Source of the DNA: a virus
DNA length: 37,715 bases
Direction: 5' to 3' (one strand)
IMG/VR virus record: IMGVR_UViG_3300035698_008908
Span: 1-37,715 of that record
Made by a program: the position numbers and the translations under genes. Positions 22,652 to 33,585 of the stretch are shown piece by piece. Position 1 is the first letter of the stretch. Each line of letters begins with the position of its first letter. Below the pieces are notes generated by a model that saw only the letters and a program-made list of their open reading frames with translations, was not told where the DNA came from and did not search any database.

Positions 22652-24529
22652 ATGGGTTCAAAACGTCAGAGGGTGCGCATCGAGGCACCGGCGGACCTTG
22701 ACCGGGCACGACTGGTCAAGGCTATCGCGAGCGCGACAAGCGCCGAAAAACCAAAGCACGTTCACACCAGCGACCGCACCTTCTCACGAGAGAAGCCGCT
22801 GGCGCTGCTATCCCAAAAGGTAGCAGCCGCCTATGAGTCGCTCGTGGATAAGATGTACCGTGAGCTTCTGAAGTTCATCGGGACTCAGATCATCCCAGGC
22901 ATGGAGCTGCGGAAGAGCGAGGACCCGAGCGACGGCGACTCGATGATGTACGGATTCGTCAGCGACGTAGTCTTCCCCGAAGACGACCACGTAGCCGCAG
23001 CGACCGGCACGACGACAGGACCCTTCGACCCACTCCGCGCACATACCCAGCGGAAGATGAGCCTGCTCACCCCACAGCAGCTGGAGGTCATCAAGGAGAT
23101 CATTCGCGACTATCACTCGGCGTTCGCAGTCGGCGTTATAGGTCCCGACGCTATACCGGCCGCCGAGGTCACTCGCCTCATGGACGTGGGCATTCTCCCA
23201 CAGGGTCTCGGTCTGCTCTTTCAGCCCGCCCCCGGGGAGCTTCCGCCGCCCGTCATGCGCGTGACCGACTTGGGCTATCAGTACGGCCAGCAGATCGCAC
23301 AGCCCGCTCAGGCGGAGGCTGTGCGGAAGATGGACGAAGAGCAGTTTCAAGAGCATCTGGAGCTGACCCGCCCCACGCTCAACGCAGTGGAGCGCCAGGC
23401 GATGGGCTTCGCGCGCTTCAACGCCGGCGAGCACATCCGAGGCATGGGGGACCGTATCTCGCTCGAGGTAGGCACCTTGGTCCGCGATGCCGACGCCGAG
23501 CAGCGCCGCCGCTACATGGGCGTCGTGCAGAAGGAGCTTGAGGACAACATCGACCGCCGAGGGTCTTGGCGCGCGCTGGCTTCGTCCATCGGCCACGCGA
23601 CCGGCGACTGGTCCCGTGACATGCAGCGCGTGGCAGCCACCGAGACTCAATACGCGATGCAGGAGGGGCAGGCGCGCACCATCGCCAAGGGCCGCGACCC
23701 CGCGAAGATCCGCGTCGCGAAGATCCCGAACCCTGGGGCCTGCAAGGACTGCGTCCGCCTCCACCTGACAGCAGGTGAGGGTAGCCCCCCGCGGATCTTC
23801 TTCCTCGAAGAACTGACGGCCAACGGCACCAACGTGGGCATCAAGCGCGCGGGGTGGAAGCCCACCGTCGGGCCGGTGCACCCCTGGTGTGGATGCTCGC
23901 TTCTCGAAGTGCCCGACGGCTGGGGCTTCGACGCTGAGGGCACCATGCTGCCCGAGTCGATGCTGGAGAAGCACGACCGCCTAGAGGACTCTTTCGAGAA
24001 GTCCGGACGAGCGCATATGACCCACGGCGACGCGGTCCCCGTAGACACCCTCGTCGTCCGCGTGGCTGACCCGGCCATCCGCCAGGTCATCGAAGCAGTC
24101 CTCGCCGAGGCGCCGCCGGCCATCTTCCACAAGGACATCGGCGTCACGCTGATCACCACCGACAGCCCACGCGCGCAGAACCCGCTCGAAGAGCACGATT
24201 TCGCTTATTGGACGGCGAACGAGATCCGCTTGAACCAGACACTACCCATCGAGCGCGTGCCCCGCGTGCTTCGCCACGAGCTGGGGCACAGCCTCAACGT
24301 CCACCTGATGAAGAAGTTCGGCAACGTCCAAGCCGTCCGCGACTGGCACGACGAGCTTTGGGCGGTCTCGAAGGAGGAAGGCTACGTGAGCGCCTACGCC
24401 GTGAAGTTGCCCATTGAGAATGCAGCCGAGGTCACTCGGATGTACCTTTTTGAGAAGCCCAAGCTGATGCTCCACTACCCGAACCAGTTCGCCTTCTGTC
24501 ACCGCGCCTACAGGGACATATTCACATGA
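22652..24529 (+). CDS. MuF-like minor head protein fused to a C-terminal zincin metallopeptidase
   Basis: ATG 22652, 625 residues. Residues ~250-425 match the Mu gpF-like head morphogenesis pattern: a helix with RVAATETQYAMQEGQA, then Cys364-x2-Cys367 and the closing HPWCGCSL (His410, Cys413, Cys415). The C-terminal ~120 residues contain RHELGHSLN with His542-Glu543-x-x-His546, a zinc metallopeptidase signature, preceded by EIRLNQTLP. MuF proteins sit inside the capsid at the portal, and MuF fusions to effector domains are known in phages, so the peptidase is probably packaged and may act on ejection; this last step is inference. Its stop overlaps the next ATG. Confidence 0.88.
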   Translation: MGSKRQRVRIEAPADLDRARLVKAIASATSAEKPKHVHTSDRTFSREKPLALLSQKVAAAYESLVDKMYRELLKFIGTQIIPGMELRKSEDPSDGDSMMYGFVSDVVFPEDDHVAAATGTTTGPFDPLRAHTQRKMSLLTPQQLEVIKEIIRDYHSAFAVGVIGPDAIPAAEVTRLMDVGILPQGLGLLFQPAPGELPPPVMRVTDLGYQYGQQIAQPAQAEAVRKMDEEQFQEHLELTRPTLNAVERQAMGFARFNAGEHIRGMGDRISLEVGTLVRDADAEQRRRYMGVVQKELEDNIDRRGSWRALASSIGHATGDWSRDMQRVAATETQYAMQEGQARTIAKGRDPAKIRVAKIPNPGACKDCVRLHLTAGEGSPPRIFFLEELTANGTNVGIKRAGWKPTVGPVHPWCGCSLLEVPDGWGFDAEGTMLPESMLEKHDRLEDSFEKSGRAHMTHGDAVPVDTLVVRVADPAIRQVIEAVLAEAPPAIFHKDIGVTLITTDSPRAQNPLEEHDFAYWTANEIRLNQTLPIERVPRVLRHELGHSLNVHLMKKFGNVQAVRDWHDELWAVSKEEGYVSAYAVKLPIENAAEVTRMYLFEKPKLMLHYPNQFAFCHRAYRDIFT

Positions 24530-25872
24530 AAGTCCGTATCGTCAGATTCGATAGCCTCCACAAAGGCGGGCCCTTCATCGGGCCCAAGGGCGGGAAGTAC
24601 GCAGACGCTGCCCATAAGATCCCGTGGAAGGAGCCCGGCACCCACGCAGGAGACCGCGCAGGACTCTCGGCTCTGATGGAGGAGATCAAGACCCAGCACG
24701 GCGTGAAGCTTTGGATCTCCCAGCGCGACGACATCATCACGCTGAGCAAGGTCATAGTCCCCGACGACAAGCGAGGCAGTGGCATCGGCGGCAAGGTCAT
24801 GAACGCCCTGCACGCTCACGCGGACAAGCACGGTAAGACTATCGGATTGACGCCTAGCACCGACTTCGGCGGAAAGAAGGCAGGGCTCGTCCGCTTCTAC
24901 AAGCGCCACGGCTACGTCGACAACAAGGGCCGCAACAAGGACTACGAGATCAGCGAGACCATGCTGCGGACGCCGAAGAAGCTCGCGAAGAGCTTGCGGA
25001 AGTCGCCGTTCATCGGCCCGCGAGGCGGGCTCTACGCAGACGTCGCGCACAAGATCCCCTACAACAAAAAAGAGCACGGAGCGGTGAAGCCGTCGAAGTG
25101 CCCTCGGTGCAAGGGCGTCTCGCACATCATATCTAGGCAGAAGACCATCGGCGGGAAGGCTGAGGTCAGCGCGTCCCCATGCCGGACCTGCAACCCCAAG
25201 GGCAAGATCAAGCTCGACCCCAAGAAGGTCGCGGCCGCGGGGCTCCCAATGCCCAAGGCCAAGAAGGTCGCCCGCCGAGCGCCCCCCGAGCGTGATCAGC
25301 CTGCGCAGAAGCACCAGATGAAGCTCGACTACGATCGCAAGGAGGACACGCGCCAGATGAGCATGTTCAAGGCGGGGGTCATCACCTACGGGGAGCTCTG
25401 CAAGGCTTTGAGCGGGTCACCGTTCAAGCTCCACGGCTCGCTGAAGTTTCAAGGGCTCGACATCGCTATCGAAAATCGCAAGGGCTCTAAGCGCCCTTGG
25501 ACTGACGAGACCGGCCAGAAGGGCCACACGGTCATAGTGCACCCCTACGGCTACATCCGCGGCGTCGAGGGTGCGGACGGCGACGAGGTCGACGTCTACG
25601 TGGGCCCCGACAAAAAATCCGAGCTGGTCTTCATCGTGAATCAGCGAGCCATTCAGGACTCCCGCAAGTTCGACGAGCACAAGATCATGCTCGGCTTCAG
25701 CAGCGAAGCCGCGGCCCGTGAAGGCTATCTAAAACACTACGCGCCTCGCTCGCTCGGGAAGCGCCTACTGGGCACCATGCGCACGTGGTCAATGGAGCGA
25801 TTCAAGCGGTGGCTGGATAAGCGCGAAGCCCGTAAGGCCCCCGTGCAGAAGGCGTTCGTGGTCCATCGATGA
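24526..25872 (+). CDS. GNAT acetyltransferase - zinc motif - inorganic pyrophosphatase-like fusion
   Basis: 448 residues, ATG overlapping the MuF stop. Domains: a module PFIGPKGGKYAD (11-37); a GNAT-type domain with the acetyl-CoA loop VIVPDDKRGSGIGGKVM (~76-92); a second near-identical module PFIGPRGGLYAD (153-182); four Cys (192, 195, 219, 222) spaced as a zinc ribbon; QMSMF (277-281); then from ~300 a domain with GLDIAIENRKGSKR, YGYIRGVEGADGDEVDVYVGP (351-357 fits the family I pyrophosphatase signature D-x-D-x-x-D) and DEHKIMLGF. The last domain resembles the pyrophosphatase-like domain found in polyvalent proteins. Acetyl-acceptor and physiological substrate are unknown. The protein may be delivered with the DNA. 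Confidence 0.85.
   Translation: MKVRIVRFDSLHKGGPFIGPKGGKYADAAHKIPWKEPGTHAGDRAGLSALMEEIKTQHGVKLWISQRDDIITLSKVIVPDDKRGSGIGGKVMNALHAHADKHGKTIGLTPSTDFGGKKAGLVRFYKRHGYVDNKGRNKDYEISETMLRTPKKLAKSLRKSPFIGPRGGLYADVAHKIPYNKKEHGAVKPSKCPRCKGVSHIISRQKTIGGKAEVSASPCRTCNPKGKIKLDPKKVAAAGLPMPKAKKVARRAPPERDQPAQKHQMKLDYDRKEDTRQMSMFKAGVITYGELCKALSGSPFKLHGSLKFQGLDIAIENRKGSKRPWTDETGQKGHTVIVHPYGYIRGVEGADGDEVDVYVGPDKKSELVFIVNQRAIQDSRKFDEHKIMLGFSSEAAAREGYLKHYAPRSLGKRLLGTMRTWSMERFKRWLDKREARKAPVQKAFVVHR
24556..24636 (+). repeat. PFIGPKGG module, copy A
   Basis: Encodes GGPFIGPKGGKYADAAHKIP and is repeated in the same gene at 24982-25071 as SPFIGPRGGLYADVAHKIP. The two copies flank the acetyltransferase domain, and both precede a basic/aromatic end (WKEP, YNKK). 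Confidence 0.8.
24982..25071 (+). repeat. PFIGPRGG module, copy B
   Basis: Second copy of the 24556-24636 module, preceded by LAKSLRK. The core PFIGP(K/R)GGxYADxAHKIP is shared; only four core positions differ. The GPRGGK core also recurs in the 1355-residue protein (13823-13930). Confidence 0.8.
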
Positions 25873-26194: not shown

Positions 26195-26923
26195 ATGTCT
26201 AACACCCCCTTCAAAGTCGAGATTCAAGCCGAGTTCTTCGAGAAGTCGGAAGCCCCCCAGGGCCGGCATCGACGGATCGGCGGCTACGTCTCCACGGACG
26301 ACCTCGACAAGCAGGGCGAGGTCTTGCTTCAGGAGGGTCTCGACTTCGGGCCGTTCCTCAAGGCTGGCTACTTCAACGACAACCACCTGAAGGAGACCGG
26401 CAAGGCTGTCGGCTACCCTGAAATCGCCGAGCTGCGCACCCTCGCGAAGGGTCGACAGGCCTGGTACGTCGAGGGCTACCTACTCGAAGGCCACCAGCCT
26501 GCCGACGAAATCTGGTCGATGGCGACAGCGTTGAAGCGTGCAGGCGCTCCGCGAAGCCTCGGCTACAGCGTCGAGGGCATGATCCTCGAACGCGACCCAA
26601 GGAACCCTTCGACTATCTCGAAGGCCATCGTTCGCGAGGTCGCGGTCACCCGCTGCCCCGTCAACGACAACACCAGCCTCGTCCTGCTCGCGAAGAGCTT
26701 GAGCGCTGGCGGTGCTGTCTCCAACCCAGGGGCCAGCCCCGGTGAAGGCTTCGCGCTGCGCACGGAATCCCTCGAAGAGGACGAAGACGAGCGCAAGAAG
26801 AAGAAGCTGAAGAAAATGAAGAAGAGTGAGGCCGTGCGGTTCCTGATGACCCGCAACGCAAGCCTCTCCGAAATGTCTGCAACTCGCATCGTCGAGTATG
26901 CACTGCGGCATCCCGCCGCGTGA
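26195..26923 (+). CDS. Prohead (capsid maturation) protease
   Basis: Serine protease that trims scaffold and capsid proteins during head assembly; it acts inside the prohead. The family pattern is visible: GGYVSTDDLDKQGEV, candidate catalytic His64 (FNDNHLKETG), and GYSVEGMILE with candidate nucleophile Ser125, then IVREVAVTRCPVN. 242 residues. After the catalytic core, residues 165-194 carry a block that is 20/30 identical to residues 29-58 of the capsid protein, ending in LRTESLE, followed by a Lys-rich stretch and a C-terminal helix. No Shine-Dalgarno is visible and the start lies directly after a terminator, so transcription probably begins in or very near this gap. Confidence 0.88.
   Translation: MSNTPFKVEIQAEFFEKSEAPQGRHRRIGGYVSTDDLDKQGEVLLQEGLDFGPFLKAGYFNDNHLKETGKAVGYPEIAELRTLAKGRQAWYVEGYLLEGHQPADEIWSMATALKRAGAPRSLGYSVEGMILERDPRNPSTISKAIVREVAVTRCPVNDNTSLVLLAKSLSAGGAVSNPGASPGEGFALRTESLEEDEDERKKKKLKKMKKSEAVRFLMTRNASLSEMSATRIVEYALRHPAA
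26687..26776 (+). repeat. RTESLE block, copy in the protease
   Basis: Encodes a 30-residue block starting LAKSLSAG and ending GFALRTESLE. It aligns without gaps to 27958-28047 in the capsid gene with 20 of 30 residues identical. Confidence 0.85.
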
Positions 26924-26937
26924 TCAGGAGGACAACC

Positions 26938-27840
26938 ATGGAAAACGGACAAGAGGTCACGCTCGAGGATATCGACGCGGGACTCGACAATCTCCTCAAG
27001 GCGGTCGGCAAGACCAGCCTCGTCAAGGGTGGCGGCATCGACCAGTACGGTCATGTCGACGAGCGCGGCAAGACCGCGGGCGGGCGCCCAGGTTCTAGCG
27101 ATATGGGCGGTCTCGACCGCATGATGATCGCCAAGATGGAGGACGCGCTCATCGACGGCGGCTTCCCCGCCGACGCCATCGCTGCCTTCATGGGCGACGA
27201 CGAAGAAGAGGAAGAGGAAGAGGAAGAGGAGGAGTCGGGCAAGATGTCCAAGGACGACGACGACAAGAAGGACAACCCCTTCGGCAAGTCGCTCGACGCC
27301 TTCCAGTCCGACGAAGTCGTGGCGGACGCCATCGACGTCTCGCCCTTCCTCGAAAACCTGGTGCACATCACCAGCACGCAGCTCGACGCCCTCGGCAAGA
27401 GCCAGAACGCATCCGTCGCCGAGCAGGCCCAGGTCAACGAGTCCATGGCCGTCGCCATGTACGGCATCGGCCAGCTCGTGAAGGGCATGGCTCCCGTGCT
27501 CCAGGCGCTCAACGACCGGCTTCAGCTGGTCGAGCGCACTCCCAACGCCCCCCGCGGCATCCAGAGTCCTCGTCGCGCCCAGGCGATGGCGAAGAGCTTC
27601 GGCGAGCACGGCGTCGAAGGACAAGGCCAGGGCGTCCAGCTCACGAAGAGCATGGTGCTCGGGGCCTTGACCTACATGAACCTCGAAAAGGGGCTCAAAG
27701 AGATCGGCGGACGTCCTACGTCTGAGCTGATTGGACTCTACGAGTCCAACAACCAACTCCAACCCCAGGCGCTGCAAGCGGTTCAACGCTTCCTCTCCAC
27801 CCACCCATCGGAAGCGGCCACGGCCGTCTCCTACCGCTAA
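26938..27840 (+). CDS. Scaffold-position protein with polyacidic stretch, 300 aa
   Basis: ATG 26938 has a good Shine-Dalgarno (CAGGAGGA, 26926-26933); the upstream in-frame GTG was rejected. Between protease and capsid genes, where scaffolding proteins usually lie. It has a Gly-rich N-terminal part, a run of Glu (27198-27236), a Lys/Asp-rich linker and a helical C-terminal half (NESMAVAMYGIGQLVKGMAP; LQALNDRLQLVE). The composition and length fit an internal scaffold that the protease removes, but no family is recognised, so the role is inferred from position and composition. Confidence 0.7.
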   Translation: MENGQEVTLEDIDAGLDNLLKAVGKTSLVKGGGIDQYGHVDERGKTAGGRPGSSDMGGLDRMMIAKMEDALIDGGFPADAIAAFMGDDEEEEEEEEEEESGKMSKDDDDKKDNPFGKSLDAFQSDEVVADAIDVSPFLENLVHITSTQLDALGKSQNASVAEQAQVNESMAVAMYGIGQLVKGMAPVLQALNDRLQLVERTPNAPRGIQSPRRAQAMAKSFGEHGVEGQGQGVQLTKSMVLGALTYMNLEKGLKEIGGRPTSELIGLYESNNQLQPQALQAVQRFLSTHPSEAATAVSYR

Positions 27841-27873
27841 ACCCGGTCTGAGCAAAGAAAAGAGAAAACCAAC

Positions 27874-29292
27874 ATGCTAGGAGCATTCGTTTCAGCGCAG
27901 GATTACCGGGATTACGGCGGGTACGGCAACGTACAAAACTCCACCGACATCACGGACCTGCACAAGGCACTCAGTGCCGGCAACGACGTCAACGACCCGG
28001 GCACTGCCCCAGGCGTGGGCTTCCCTCTCCGTACAGAGAGCCTTGAGGCCACCCTCAAGAATCTCACGTACGAGATGGACGAGATCAAGCTGTTCAAGAG
28101 CATCGCCAAGGTGCCCGCGAGCAACACGGTCGAAGAGTTCAACCGCATCCTCGCCTACGGCGAAGGCGGAGCTCGTTCGTTCAACCAGGGCTTCTTCTCC
28201 GAAGGCGGACTGCCTGACGAGCAGGATTCGACGTATGAGCGCGTGACCGTGCTCATCAAGTTCCTCGGAGTCGTCGGCCGCGTCACGCACGTCGCCAACA
28301 CCATCCGAGCCGCGCACGGCAACGTCATCGCCATGGAGACGATGAACAAGACGATGGAGCTTCTTCGGAATCTCGAGAACGCCTTGTTCTTCGGCGACAG
28401 CTCGCTCATCCCTGAGCAGTGGGACGGCATCAAGAAGCTCGTGACGGACGGCGCGCCCGACAACGTCATCGACCTTCGCGGCGGTCCCCTCACGGAGGAG
28501 GCCCTCAACGACTTCCTTCTCATCATCCGCGAGAACTTCGGCATGGCGACCGACGCGTACTTCGGTACGGGTCCATTCGCTGACCTCGCGAAGCAGGTCT
28601 ACGACCGTCAGCGCTTCGCGTACGCCCCAGCTCCGGGCGTCCTCGGTGCGACCATCACTGCCTTCCAGGGGCAGAACGGCCGCGTCAACCTCCACGACCA
28701 CGTCTTCATCACGCCGGGTAACCTCGCGCGCGCTGCGGGCTTGGGCAAGGTCGACAAGCGCCCAGCGGCGCCTTCGATCTCCGTGGACCCCGCGGCAGCT
28801 GCCAGCGGCGCCTCGCTCTTCGGAGCAGGCGACGCAGGCACCTACACCTACCGCGTCGTCGCGGGCAACAAGCACGGTCTCTCCGTTCCGCTCAGCTCCG
28901 CTTCGGTGGCTGTGGCTGTCGGCGACGCTGTCACGTTCACCGTCGTTGACGGCGGACAGGACACGACCTTCTACGAGATTTACCGAACCCCTGCCAGCGG
29001 TGCAGCGGCGACGGCGAAGCTCATGGTCCGCGTTCCACGCTCGGCCGCTTCCCAGGTCATCACCGACCTCAACAGCGACCTCCCTGGTACCAGCGACGGC
29101 TTCGTGCTGATGCAGAACCAGCGCTCGTTCTCTTGGAGCCAGCTCCTTCCGATGACCCGCATTCCGCTCGCTGCGCTCGACACGTCGATCCGCTGGGCGC
29201 AGGTCATCTACGGGGCCATCAAGATGTACACCCCGACGAAGAACGTCATCATCAAGAACATCGGCCGCGCGCCAGGTTCACTCGGCGTCTAG
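27874..29292 (+). CDS. Major capsid protein with Ig/FN3-like insertion
   Basis: 472 residues, ATG 27874. The capsid call rests on the gene order (protease, scaffold, capsid), the size, and the segment TVEEFNRILAYGEGGARSF…EGGLPDEQDSTYERVTVLIKFLGVVGRVTH typical of a phage HK97-fold capsid group. Residues ~29-58 form an N-terminal block shared with the protease and ending LRTESLE, probably part of a removable or targeting segment. Residues ~292-409 (KRPAAPSISVDP … TYTYRVVAGNKHG … TFYEIYRTPASG) look like an Ig/FN3-type beta sandwich inserted in the fold, as in phages whose capsid surface carries Ig-like domains. The last ~60 residues resume the capsid fold. A terminator follows. Confidence 0.9.
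   Translation: MLGAFVSAQDYRDYGGYGNVQNSTDITDLHKALSAGNDVNDPGTAPGVGFPLRTESLEATLKNLTYEMDEIKLFKSIAKVPASNTVEEFNRILAYGEGGARSFNQGFFSEGGLPDEQDSTYERVTVLIKFLGVVGRVTHVANTIRAAHGNVIAMETMNKTMELLRNLENALFFGDSSLIPEQWDGIKKLVTDGAPDNVIDLRGGPLTEEALNDFLLIIRENFGMATDAYFGTGPFADLAKQVYDRQRFAYAPAPGVLGATITAFQGQNGRVNLHDHVFITPGNLARAAGLGKVDKRPAAPSISVDPAAAASGASLFGAGDAGTYTYRVVAGNKHGLSVPLSSASVAVAVGDAVTFTVVDGGQDTTFYEIYRTPASGAAATAKLMVRVPRSAASQVITDLNSDLPGTSDGFVLMQNQRSFSWSQLLPMTRIPLAALDTSIRWAQVIYGAIKMYTPTKNVIIKNIGRAPGSLGV
27958..28047 (+). repeat. RTESLE block, copy in the capsid protein
   Basis: Encodes residues 29-58 of the capsid protein, starting LHKALSAG and ending GFPLRTESLE. It is 20/30 identical to protease residues 165-194 with no gap. 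Confidence 0.85.
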
Positions 29293-30321: not shown

Positions 30322-31215
30322 ATGAACGCGCACAGGGGTGACCACGATATCGCCTTCTTCGAGGCCACGGTCGGAGCAACCTCCGAGGCGCAGACCCTCG
30401 CGGCAGATACTCCCATCTTCCTCAACAGCGACGAAGACGGCGCGATTCTACCAGCCCGCTACCTGTTCCAGGTGGCGGGCGTCGGCGCGGATGGTGCCGA
30501 CACGGTCTGGGCGTGGATAGGCTTCCGACCCTTCGCCAAGGGCGACACCGCGGGCAGCGTCGCGGGGCCAGGTAACAAGCGCATCCCGCTGTCCCAGGCG
30601 ACGATCATCGGCATCGAGTCGAACGTGCTCGAGGGCGCCCAAACGTATTGGGTCTTCTCCACACACGAAACTTTCCAGCCCCTAGGCGGTTATGCACTCG
30701 GCTACGATGAGAACCGATTCAAGTACGCCATTGTCCAAGACAGTGACGGCGGTACTCTCGAAAACTTCGGCAACGCCGCCTACACGGAGTTTGGACTTTT
30801 CGGTAAGAACTTCGTTCTCACCTTAGTTTACGACGGCACGGATTCGTACTTCTACGTAGACGGGCAAGAGGTGTTCGGTCACACACCCGCCAGCGGTTAC
30901 CGAGTCGCGAACAGCTCCAATCGACCGCTTCTCGGGAAAAACAACAACACCGGCGCAGAACTGGTGAATGAACATTTCGCTGTGATGGGGTTTGGTTACG
31001 ACGAGACAGTACCTACACAGACTGAAGTCATCGCTCACTACGTCTCGTGTTTGGAGGCTGACGGGTTCGTGGACGGCGGGATCGGTTTCTCCAACATGTA
31101 CAGTTTCGATGGCGAGGCTTCCGGTCCTACTACGCTGGCCGATAGCGTAGGGGCTGTGGACTTCACCGAACAAGGCACCATCACCACCACCGAGATCAAA
31201 AGGGTATACGGATGA
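30322..31215 (+). CDS. Decoration-like protein with C-terminal LamG/concanavalin-type lectin domain
   Basis: 297 residues, ATG 30322 preceded by AGGGGGA. The first ~110 residues resemble the preceding 133-residue protein. Residues ~140-265 have the pattern of a LamG/ConA-like jelly roll: FVLTLVYDGTDSYFYVDGQEVFG, NRPLLGKNNNTGAE, HFAVMGFGYDETVPTQTEV. Such domains bind glycans and on phage heads or tails may help attachment. Base composition changes at this domain: two 60-base lines (30781, 30961) count 28 and 29 G+C against 41 for 30181-30240. This suggests that the lectin part was acquired separately. Its stop overlaps the kinase start (ATGA). Confidence 0.75.
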   Translation: MNAHRGDHDIAFFEATVGATSEAQTLAADTPIFLNSDEDGAILPARYLFQVAGVGADGADTVWAWIGFRPFAKGDTAGSVAGPGNKRIPLSQATIIGIESNVLEGAQTYWVFSTHETFQPLGGYALGYDENRFKYAIVQDSDGGTLENFGNAAYTEFGLFGKNFVLTLVYDGTDSYFYVDGQEVFGHTPASGYRVANSSNRPLLGKNNNTGAELVNEHFAVMGFGYDETVPTQTEVIAHYVSCLEADGFVDGGIGFSNMYSFDGEASGPTTLADSVGAVDFTEQGTITTTEIKRVYG

Positions 31216-32348
31216 GCGAGCACTACCTACGGCTGGAGCTGGAGCAGCTCATCCAAAACGAGCCCGCAGTCTTCACCTGGATTGATGAGGGCTCGCTCGA
31301 CGGAGTCTGGTATCTCGACCTCATCGACGGGAAACAGGAGTGGATGAGCCCGCGCTTCTGCGAAATCTTCGGATACGAGTATGGGGATCTCCCCAACACA
31401 TCCGACTGGTGGCAGAACGCCATCTTCCCCGAAGATTTGAAGGTCGCCCTTGCAGCCTACGAGGCGCACGCAGCGGACCCCGATGTCCCCTACGACCTGA
31501 TCGCACGCTACCGGCACAAGAACGGCAGCACGGTCTGGGTTCGGTGCCGTGGGCTCATCATCCGCGACAACCAGGGCGAGCCCATCCGCATGCTGGGCGC
31601 ACATACGGAGATCACTCAACACATGGAGACCGAGAAGGAGCTTCAGCGCAGCGTCCAAGAGCTGGCCCAATTCGCTTTCGTGGCCAGCCATGACCTCCAG
31701 GAGCCTCTGCGGATGGTGACCAACTTCCTCGCGCTAGCGCTGGAGAGCCTCGAAGAGCGTGGGGTCAAGCTTCTGCCCGACGAGGTCGAGGCGTTCAACT
31801 TCGCCAGCGACGGCGCTATCCGCATGAAGCGACTCATCGCCGGCCTGCTCGAGTACAGCCGCGTGGGTCGTGACTTCGCCACAAGGCCGTTTGAGGCATC
31901 CGAGGCGGTAGACGAAGCCCTGGCCATTTTGAACGGCGCGGTGACGGACCGCGGCGCTGAGGTCGTTGTAGGGGAGCTTCCCGAGATCATCGGCCACTTC
32001 CCCAGCATCGCGCGAGTCTTTCAGAACATCATCGGGAACGCGCTCAAGTTTCGCCATGCGGACCGTCCCCTCGTGGTCAAGGTCAACGGCATTGACGAGG
32101 GCAACCGCTGGCGCTTCAGTATTCAGGACAACGGGGCAGGCTTTGAGCAGGATTTTGCTGAACAGATATTCGTCATCTTTCGACGGCTCGGGTCGGAAAA
32201 GAACGGAGAAGGTCTAGGTTTAGCCGTTTGTCGGCGCATAGTGGAACGGCACCAGGGTAGTATCTGGGCAGAGTCGTGTCCCGATATAGGGTCGACGTTC
32301 TTCTTCACGATTATGAAGCCTACGAAAGTGGGTGAAGCGGCAGGGTGA
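31212..32348 (+). CDS. Soluble PAS-domain sensor histidine kinase
   Basis: Autophosphorylates on histidine and passes phosphate to response regulators. 378 residues, ATG overlapping the previous stop. PAS domain at ~18-135 (DGVWYLDLIDGKQEWMSPRF … YRHKNGSTVWVRCRG … GAHTEIT). HisKA H-box FVASHDLQEPLRMV with phospho-accepting His160, the SHDLQEPLR form common in phytochrome-like (Cph1-type) kinases. HATPase: N-box NIIGNALKF (Asn276), G1 DNGAGF (Asp306), F-box FVIFRRLG, G2 GEGLGLAVCRRI (from 332). All catalytic elements are present, so it should be active. No membrane segment, so it senses a cytoplasmic cue through PAS; the ligand is unknown. Histidine kinases are rare in phages, and its position inside the head-neck genes is striking. 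Two receivers follow. Confidence 0.95.
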   Translation: MSEHYLRLELEQLIQNEPAVFTWIDEGSLDGVWYLDLIDGKQEWMSPRFCEIFGYEYGDLPNTSDWWQNAIFPEDLKVALAAYEAHAADPDVPYDLIARYRHKNGSTVWVRCRGLIIRDNQGEPIRMLGAHTEITQHMETEKELQRSVQELAQFAFVASHDLQEPLRMVTNFLALALESLEERGVKLLPDEVEAFNFASDGAIRMKRLIAGLLEYSRVGRDFATRPFEASEAVDEALAILNGAVTDRGAEVVVGELPEIIGHFPSIARVFQNIIGNALKFRHADRPLVVKVNGIDEGNRWRFSIQDNGAGFEQDFAEQIFVIFRRLGSEKNGEGLGLAVCRRIVERHQGSIWAESCPDIGSTFFFTIMKPTKVGEAAG

Positions 32349-32352
32349 TAGC

Positions 32353-32754
32353 GTGGCTCGGGTTCTATTGGTCGAAGACAATCTAGGCGACGTCATCCTC
32401 ACGAAGCGGTCTATCGCCAAATCCAAGCTACCCATCACCTTGGACGTCGTGCGCGACGGGGAGCAGGCCATCGATTTCCTCTTCCAGCGGGGAGCCTATG
32501 AAGACGCCAAGCGACCCGACGTGGTCCTTCTGGACTTCAACCTGCCTAAATACGACGGCAGCGAGGTCCTGAAGCGCGTGAAGGCCAGCCTCAGCCTTCG
32601 CCTCATCCCCATCGTCATGCTGACGAGTTCTGACGCTGAGTCCGACATCGTGCGAAGCTACGCGCAGCACTGCCAGAGCTTCCTCCTGAAGCCGCTCAAC
32701 CCTCAGTCGTTCTACGACTGGTGGTTTAGGCACGGCAAAATCCCGAAGGGCTGA
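32353..32754 (+). CDS. Rcp1-type single-domain response regulator
   Basis: Receiver domain only, 133 residues from GTG 32353 (a longer GTG 32332 would overlap the kinase). Key residues visible: the acidic pair in LLVEDNLGD, phospho-acceptor Asp61 (VVLLDFNLP), Thr/Ser in MLTSSDAE, and the conserved Lys in FLLKPL. The sequence style (VEDNxGDVxLTKR; FLFQRGAYEDAKRPD; IVRSYAQHCQSFLLKPL) is that of the Rcp1 family that partners Cph1-type kinases. With no output domain it probably acts by protein-protein contact or as a phosphate shuttle to the next gene product. Confidence 0.93.
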   Translation: MARVLLVEDNLGDVILTKRSIAKSKLPITLDVVRDGEQAIDFLFQRGAYEDAKRPDVVLLDFNLPKYDGSEVLKRVKASLSLRLIPIVMLTSSDAESDIVRSYAQHCQSFLLKPLNPQSFYDWWFRHGKIPKG

Positions 32755-32757
32755 AGG

Positions 32758-33585
32758 ATGGAAATCGAAAAGACGAGGGTTCTACTTGTTGAGGACAACG
32801 AGGGCGACGTGATCTACATCACGCGCCAGCTCAAGAAGGCCCCAGAAACCAAGTTCGAGGTCACAGCCGTGGGCTGGCTCAATGCGGCGCTCCAGATGCT
32901 GGAGGCCCGTGACTACGACGTGATCCTCCTCGATCTCTCGTTGCCCGACTGCCAGGACGGCATCGACACGCTGATGTCTGTTGTAAGGAGCGCCAGGGGG
33001 GCCGCCCTGCCCATCCTCGTGATGACCGGCCACGACGACAAGGAGACCGCCAAGCGCTGCGCACGCTACGGCGCCCAGGAATACATCGTCAAAAAGAAGA
33101 TCGACCCCCGTACGCTGGAGCTGACCATCGTCGGGGCCATCGAGCGGAAGCGCACGGACCTGATCTCGAAGCAGCTCATGCACGCGGCTCTCGCTGGCTT
33201 CGATGGTGCCGGCAACGACGCGGCCACGGTCCGCATGATGCGGGACTTCGTGCACGGGTCCTTCCGAGCGATTCGCGGGATTCGGACCTACATCGCCGAG
33301 AACGCGCCCGCCCACATGGAGGCCATCGTCAGCATCCTCAACAAGCAAAACATGACCATCCTCAGCCGCGAGCTGAGTACGGTCCTGAGCTTAGACCCCA
33401 CCGAGGAGGTCACGCCGCCCCGAGGTACGCCTCGCCCTCGTGCTATGAGCGCGCAGGCCATGAAGGCGGTAGACAACATTGTCGGCCGAAAGCAGTCGCA
33501 GAGACCTTCCGACCCACCCGAAGCGCGTGCAAGCCTGCTCGACGTCATCACGCGAAACTTAGGGAAGGGGATTGGTCATGGATAA
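32758..33585 (+). CDS. Response regulator with C-terminal domain of unknown function
   Basis: 275 residues, ATG 32758. Receiver at ~5-130: LLVEDNEGD, phospho-acceptor Asp59 (VILLDLSLPD), MTGHDD, and Lys in YIVKKKID. The C-terminal ~140 residues are not a DNA-binding, GGDEF or phosphatase domain that I know: a helical part (VRMMRDFVHGSFRAIRGIRT; MEAIVSILNKQNMTILSREL) is followed by a Pro/Arg-rich linker and a final helix. It overlaps the next gene by 8 bases, so the coiled-coil membrane protein is its nearest candidate partner (inference). Confidence 0.9.
   Translation: MEIEKTRVLLVEDNEGDVIYITRQLKKAPETKFEVTAVGWLNAALQMLEARDYDVILLDLSLPDCQDGIDTLMSVVRSARGAALPILVMTGHDDKETAKRCARYGAQEYIVKKKIDPRTLELTIVGAIERKRTDLISKQLMHAALAGFDGAGNDAATVRMMRDFVHGSFRAIRGIRTYIAENAPAHMEAIVSILNKQNMTILSRELSTVLSLDPTEEVTPPRGTPRPRAMSAQAMKAVDNIVGRKQSQRPSDPPEARASLLDVITRNLGKGIGHG

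Follow-up and report, generated by a model that had tools for sequence, protein, structure and literature searches.

A sequence block shared by the head maturation protease and the capsid protein of an SPO1-type phage, with a candidate cleavage rule and a possible capsid-arm mimic

Why would a phage carry the same stretch of protein sequence in its prohead protease and in its major capsid protein? The question is raised by a viral DNA of 37,715 nucleotides (IMG/VR record IMGVR_UViG_3300035698_008908; hereafter the window), for which an initial annotation had noticed an ungapped block of 30 residues with 20 identities, ending in LRTESLE in both proteins, and had read it as a sign of common use. 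Realignment, BLASTP and shuffles confirmed the block. It probably combines a maturation-cleavage site with the capsid N-arm, and the protease that cuts the capsid protein would carry a mimic of it in its own tail. The features concerned are these (an arrow marks a scissile bond).

26195..26923, + strand: prohead (head maturation) protease gene, 242 aa (phrog_1028, E 6e-44)
26246..26695, + strand: folded catalytic domain of the protease, residues 18-167 (AlphaFold2 model)
26693..26776, + strand: protease copy of the block, residues 167-194, with predicted self-cleavage at K167↓S168 and then a putative N-arm mimic ending LRTESLE
26813..26911, + strand: C-terminal two-helix domain of the protease, residues 207-239 (AlphaFold2 model)
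26920..27840, + strand: scaffold gene, start GTG 26920 or ATG 26938 (phrog_15087 head scaffolding protein, E 1.4e-12)
After nt 27000, 27288, 27594 and 27648, + strand: four predicted LxK↓[SA]h-type cuts in the scaffold
27874..29292, + strand: major capsid protein gene, 472 aa, HK97 fold of SPO1 type (phrog_752, E 1.7e-88)
27874..27966, + strand: predicted capsid propeptide, residues 1-31, removed by a cut at K31↓A32
27964..28047, + strand: capsid copy of the block, residues 31-58, a predicted cleavage site followed by the start of the mature N-arm

The block and its distribution among relatives

The protease appears to be an SPO1-type head maturation protease, with predicted activity on the capsid protein and the scaffold. 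The phrog_1028 profile matches residues 17-195 (E 6.4e-44), and H64 and S125, which we infer to be the catalytic residues His64 and Ser125, are invariant in 37 relatives. The AlphaFold2 model has its best structural match in T4 gp21 (5jbl, Z 10.7), with herpesvirus proteases (assemblins) at about 6-10, and the protein combines this assemblin-like serine protease fold with an invariant Ser and His. It scores below the Peptidase_S78 (PF04586) cut-off (13.4 bits vs. 21) while the SPO1 and A9 proteases pass, which makes it a diverged Peptidase_S78 relative. In the model, pLDDT is mostly 86-97 over residues 21-160 and drops to about 67 around 161-170, where the domain ends; the linker that holds the block (residues 168-202) is disordered; and two helices (210-220 and 226-238; pLDDT 94-97 over most of the segment) follow at the C-terminus. 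A comparable helix pair is present in most relatives.

The capsid protein matches the SPO1-type major capsid proteins both in profile (phrog_752) and in fold (Z 35.4 against the SPO1 capsid, 9vel). The order portal, protease, scaffold, capsid is that of SPO1 gp3.1, 3.2, 3.3 and 6.1, in families phrog_1028, phrog_15087 and phrog_752, so that the SPO1-type (Herelleviridae) head cluster resembles the window in gene order, gene families and block pair, while the capsid proteins of SPO1 and the window are only about 30% identical. Searching with the capsid protein returned 628 phage records, all below 60% identity and mostly from Staphylococcus, Bacillus, Enterococcus and Listeria phages.

Two other parts of the window stand out. 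Among its head and tail genes, positions 31212-34105 encode a PAS-histidine kinase, two response-regulator receiver proteins and a small ORF (at 33572). No kinase or receiver genes lie near the capsid gene in the fetched relatives, and the flanking genes (30322, 34143) are conserved; judged from the sequence, this is a two-component cassette inserted in the phage structural operon. A C-5 cytosine DNA methylase with an N-terminal extension (194-2479; PF00145, E 1.5e-61) occupies the window start.

Protease residues 165-194 (LAKSLSAGGAVSNPGASPGEGFALRTESLE; nt 26687-26776, + strand) align without gaps to capsid residues 29-58 (LHKALSAGNDVNDPGTAPGVGFPLRTESLE; nt 27958-28047, + strand), with 20/30 identities, and the match grows to 22/39 identities in BLASTP (E 5e-10). 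The local score of the pair is 107, compared with 35±5 for shuffles and a maximum of 64 among 2,000 shuffled proteases. Paired blocks are also found in SPO1, SBSphiC, LysYB1, Listeria AG20, Brochothrix A9, Staphylococcus Stab22, Pseudomonas Touem01, Thermus Cumys and IMG/VR loci. Their wording is lineage-specific, as in the protease and capsid copies of A9 (KSMTTGYEHGGTDQTDGSALRRQSLA / KSMTTGYNHGGTDQFNGQALRRQSLA) and of Cumys (AGDPHALDPKSGLTGVPAIRRESLE / AGDPHALDFKAGLSGVPAIRLESLE), and the capsid profile phrog_752 itself matches the protease tails of SPO1, A9 and Stab22.

The initial annotation had suggested searching relatives for co-variation of the two blocks. In 75 distinct pairs, whose sources were phages, IMG/VR and two contigs of bacterial genomes, matched blocks score 70.1 on average and randomly re-paired ones 45.4±1.9, a difference due in large part to shared descent; none of 20,000 trials reached the matched value. 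With capsid-core and protease-domain distances removed, block distances keep a partial correlation of 0.29 (0/2,000), a rough figure as the regular-expression extraction missed true blocks (e.g. those of L107, L111 and L116), and the match persists where capsid cores are less than 30% identical. Common use is thus borne out in that pairs recur in SPO1-type phages, those of Bacillus included, and matched pairs exceed re-paired ones. Chance or low complexity as the source of the match is ruled out by the BLASTP E value, the shuffles and the re-pairing.

The trait is uneven. Scores of at least 60 are reached by 38 of the 75 pairs; the other 37 fall below 60, and their proteases keep K[SA]h (h, hydrophobic) and little else of the block. 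In one group of loci (L097-L106) the ESLE part is lost and the protease retains only K[SA]h. Since many proteases have K[SA]h with little further block, the mimic is not essential everywhere. It looks specific to the SPO1-type lineage.

At the DNA level the two window copies are identical at 51/90 positions and use the same codon for 5 of 20 identical residues. Over the strong pairs, codons agree for 334 of 764 identical residues, and 324 are expected from codon usage. Codon sharing at chance level leaves no trace of recent DNA copying, which rules out a recent duplication or gene conversion; as far as codon use can tell, the match is maintained by protein-level selection and not by recent copying. 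An older event is a separate matter: a functionless remnant, left when part of the capsid N-terminus was duplicated into the protease gene or by gene conversion, would agree with LysYB1 and contigs L115 and L118, where similarity continues for 47-70 residues past the block start as an old duplication predicts. With no DNA-level trace across those 764 residues, and with a match between phages whose capsid cores have diverged so far that selection is needed to hold it, we regard such a remnant as very improbable. No description of the shared block was found in the open-access literature searched, and an earlier one elsewhere is possible.

Mature N-termini of relatives and a candidate cutting rule

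Mature capsid chains of two relatives begin at the block. In phage 812 (PDB 9row, 9rox, 9roz), the chain opens at precursor Ser25, directly after K24; this N-terminus was taken from the deposited sequence of 9row, which we read as phage 812 because it is nearly identical to 5lii, the capsid protein of phi812. For the SPO1 capsid (9vel), the alignment starts at residue 24 and the longest chain has 445 ordered residues (24-468), after K23, an N-terminus derived from resolved-residue counts; residues 1-23 could be hidden by disorder instead of cleavage. The window residue aligned with both SPO1 K23 and phage 812 K24 is capsid K31. Because the mature SPO1 and 812 chains start after the first lysine of the block, the block survives maturation and opens the N-arm of the finished shell. 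By alignment, the window capsid protein is predicted to be cut at K31↓A32. Its residues 32-65 are disordered in the monomer model, the mature SPO1 capsid is ordered from residue 24, and in HK97 the N-arm is disordered in the prohead (PMC10275583).

The initial annotation was therefore right to suspect a cleavage site inside the block and mistaken about which end: the cut lies after the first lysine (SPO1 K23↓A24, 812 K24↓S25), not at or near RTESLE. Rather than keeping residue 1 of the capsid protein together with an unconserved pair, relatives lose residue 1 and conserve the pair. That the block is the end of a propeptide, cut at or after RTESLE by an S-x-E type specificity as in phiKZ, is scarcely credible. 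SLE formally matches the S/A-x-E motif of phiKZ (PMC9026906), but the mature SPO1 and 812 chains contain the block, the 812-type capsid block ends in REILDDQ and lacks the motif, and what is enriched in scaffolds is L-x-K↓S, not x-x-E.

Conservation and motif counts point to one cutting rule, L-x-K↓[S/A]-hydrophobic, for the capsid protein, the scaffold and the protease itself. None of 41 capsid proteins departs from K31, A32 and L33, and L29 is kept in 90% or more of them. In 27 proteases, K167 and S168 are the best-conserved residues of the tail, each at 90% or above, and all 75 protease tails contain K[SA]h, including those that have no downstream half of the block. In 70 scaffolds, K[SA]-hydrophobic occurs 327 times vs. 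72 expected, a 4.5-fold enrichment (5.6-fold for L/F/M), compared with 1.1-1.4-fold for the R-, E-, D- and Q-[SA]-hydrophobic controls (E[SA]h, 1.1-fold) and 0.65-fold for K[SA]-hydrophobic in capsid cores. Leucine at P3, which was absent from the search pattern, is present at 111/230 scaffold sites (6.9-fold enriched), 41/48 capsid sites and 30/49 protease sites, and the P3, P1 and P1' profiles of the latter two agree. The window protease carries LLAK167↓SL at the end of its catalytic domain, that is, its own inferred motif before a C-terminal extension, an arrangement of the SPN3US gp245 type. The cleavage after Glu of that type (L/I-x-E, S/A-x-E) has no counterpart here, the enriched motif being L-x-K↓[SA]h. 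A further match within the capsid core, LFK75↓SI, means that the motif alone is insufficient and that the fold must expose the site.

The P1' residue differs by substrate, being Ala in 43/48 capsid sites and Ser in 37/49 protease and 171/230 scaffold sites (in the window, 27964-27969 vs. 26693-26698), a split that possibly orders the cuts. In five loci (L030, L032, L036, L091, L107) K[SA]h occurs twice in the protease tail, first at the domain end and then, about 8-17 residues further on, where the block starts, a layout that might allow one cut to follow another. A 448-aa protein (24526-25872) combines a GNAT-like part with a C-terminal InPase (PF18823) domain and also has an internal repeat (GPFIGPKGGKYADAAHKIPW / SPFIGPRGGLYADVAHKIPY); with its three L-x-K[SA]h-like sites (K155, K293, K442), it is another possible substrate of the protease.

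The downstream half of the block

Scaffolds have no similarity to the downstream half (22.3 vs. 22.4 for shuffled scaffolds). Protease tails score 50.5 against the downstream half of their own capsid protein, 29.6 against those of other phages and 19.4 when shuffled, with 35 of 46 clear. As scaffolds have the cleavage motif without this half, the reason why the roughly 25 residues past the cut are alike must lie with the protease and the capsid protein alone. One conceivable reason is that all 28 residues are an extended recognition sequence of the protease, whose substrates are then the capsid protein and its own tail. The cleavage site does open the block in both proteins, and the block co-varies between them, but scaffolds rich in L-x-K↓[SA]h have nothing of the downstream half in common with the capsid protein, and several proteases in which this half has diverged pair with a capsid protein that has the full block. 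We consider extended recognition unlikely.

Another possibility is that the block only targets or anchors the protease, as an N-arm mimic or a scaffold-binding signal that packages it, and that no self-cleavage takes place. This would suit a downstream half common to protease and capsid protein only, in a linker that adjoins the C-terminal helical domain. Against it, K[SA]h persists in every tail even where the downstream half is gone, K167 and S168 head the conservation of the tail, and related proteases remove their own C-terminal propeptide; a role in targeting alone is accordingly hard to accept, and we hold it to be quite improbable. The preferred reading, cleavage site plus N-arm mimic, keeps both elements, and in this modified form the targeting signal suggested by the initial annotation may hold. 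On the structural model, a cut at K167↓S168 is predicted to part the catalytic domain from the two-helix domain across the disordered linker, and the two-helix domain is presumed to be the prohead-targeting part that self-cleavage would remove.

Known head proteases and a proposed mechanism

The nearest parallel for the site is HK97 gp4/gp5 (Peptidase_S78 with Phage_capsid), in which the gp5 capsid protein is cut at K103/S104 (PMC10275583). As in the SPO1 type, the cut follows a Lys and precedes a Ser and the N-arm starts at the cut, and gp4, like the window protease, has K-S (MKS) past its catalytic domain and then a C-terminal extension. The scaffold has a gene of its own in the window, whereas HK97 builds it into the capsid protein as a domain. 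The extended shared block is absent from HK97 gp4/gp5, and it is also absent from 20 prophage S78 loci in bacterial genomes (own 24.7 vs. cross 23.9), a rough control, since a profile identified the capsid protein in only about 10 of the 20 loci and the first long downstream ORF stood in for it in the others. These two comparisons speak against the block as a general property of HK97-type proteases.

C-terminal processing is known for T4 gp21 and phiKZ gp175 (PMC9026906), and SPN3US gp245 cleaves a C-terminal propeptide of 64 residues off itself (PMC10052503). All three share the fold of the window protease and read a short motif from P3 to P1, and SPN3US also shares the P1' Ser preference; their P1 residue is Glu, whereas that of the window group is Lys. 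A capsid look-alike in the tails of these three proteases is not reported in PMC10052503 or PMC9026906.

The assemblins of herpesviruses, made as protease-scaffold precursors, have a fold related to that of the window protease. They cleave a single type of site, with Ser at P1', that occurs both at the junction of the catalytic domain with the scaffold part and close to the end of the scaffold. Their P1 residue is Ala, the capsid protein itself is not known to be cut, and no capsid-arm mimic is known in them. Two loci among the relatives have protease ORFs of 527-532 aa (L042:3336-4931 and L114:1173-2753) that are apparently protease-scaffold fusions, as in the herpesvirus arrangement.

We propose that the protease would recognise L-x-K↓[S/A]-hydrophobic in three settings. 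Cutting the capsid protein at K31↓A32 would take off the 31-residue propeptide and free the N-arm, which opens with the block; cutting itself at K167↓S168 would release the enzyme from whatever the two-helix domain binds inside the prohead; and the scaffold would be cut at several such sites. The remainder of the block, apparently dispensable for cleavage since scaffolds lack it, would act as an N-arm mimic, through which the protease tail may engage the partner surface of the capsid N-arm and keep the uncut protease at the inner face of the shell. More tentatively, and at rather less than even odds in our estimation, the tail might fill the N-arm site on the shell lattice before self-cleavage and so hold the enzyme beside its substrates, until a cut in the tail frees the enzyme and passes the site to newly cut capsid arms; one shared sequence would then set both targeting and timing.

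How prohead proteases enter the shell and when they free themselves is reported to be a major gap even for T4 gp21 (PMC9026906). The predicted single cleavage rule and the capsid-arm mimic offer a testable handle on it in well-studied phages (SPO1, phage K/812 and A511 relatives). If the rule is true, it would let mature N-termini be read off the sequences of hundreds of Herelleviridae capsid proteins.
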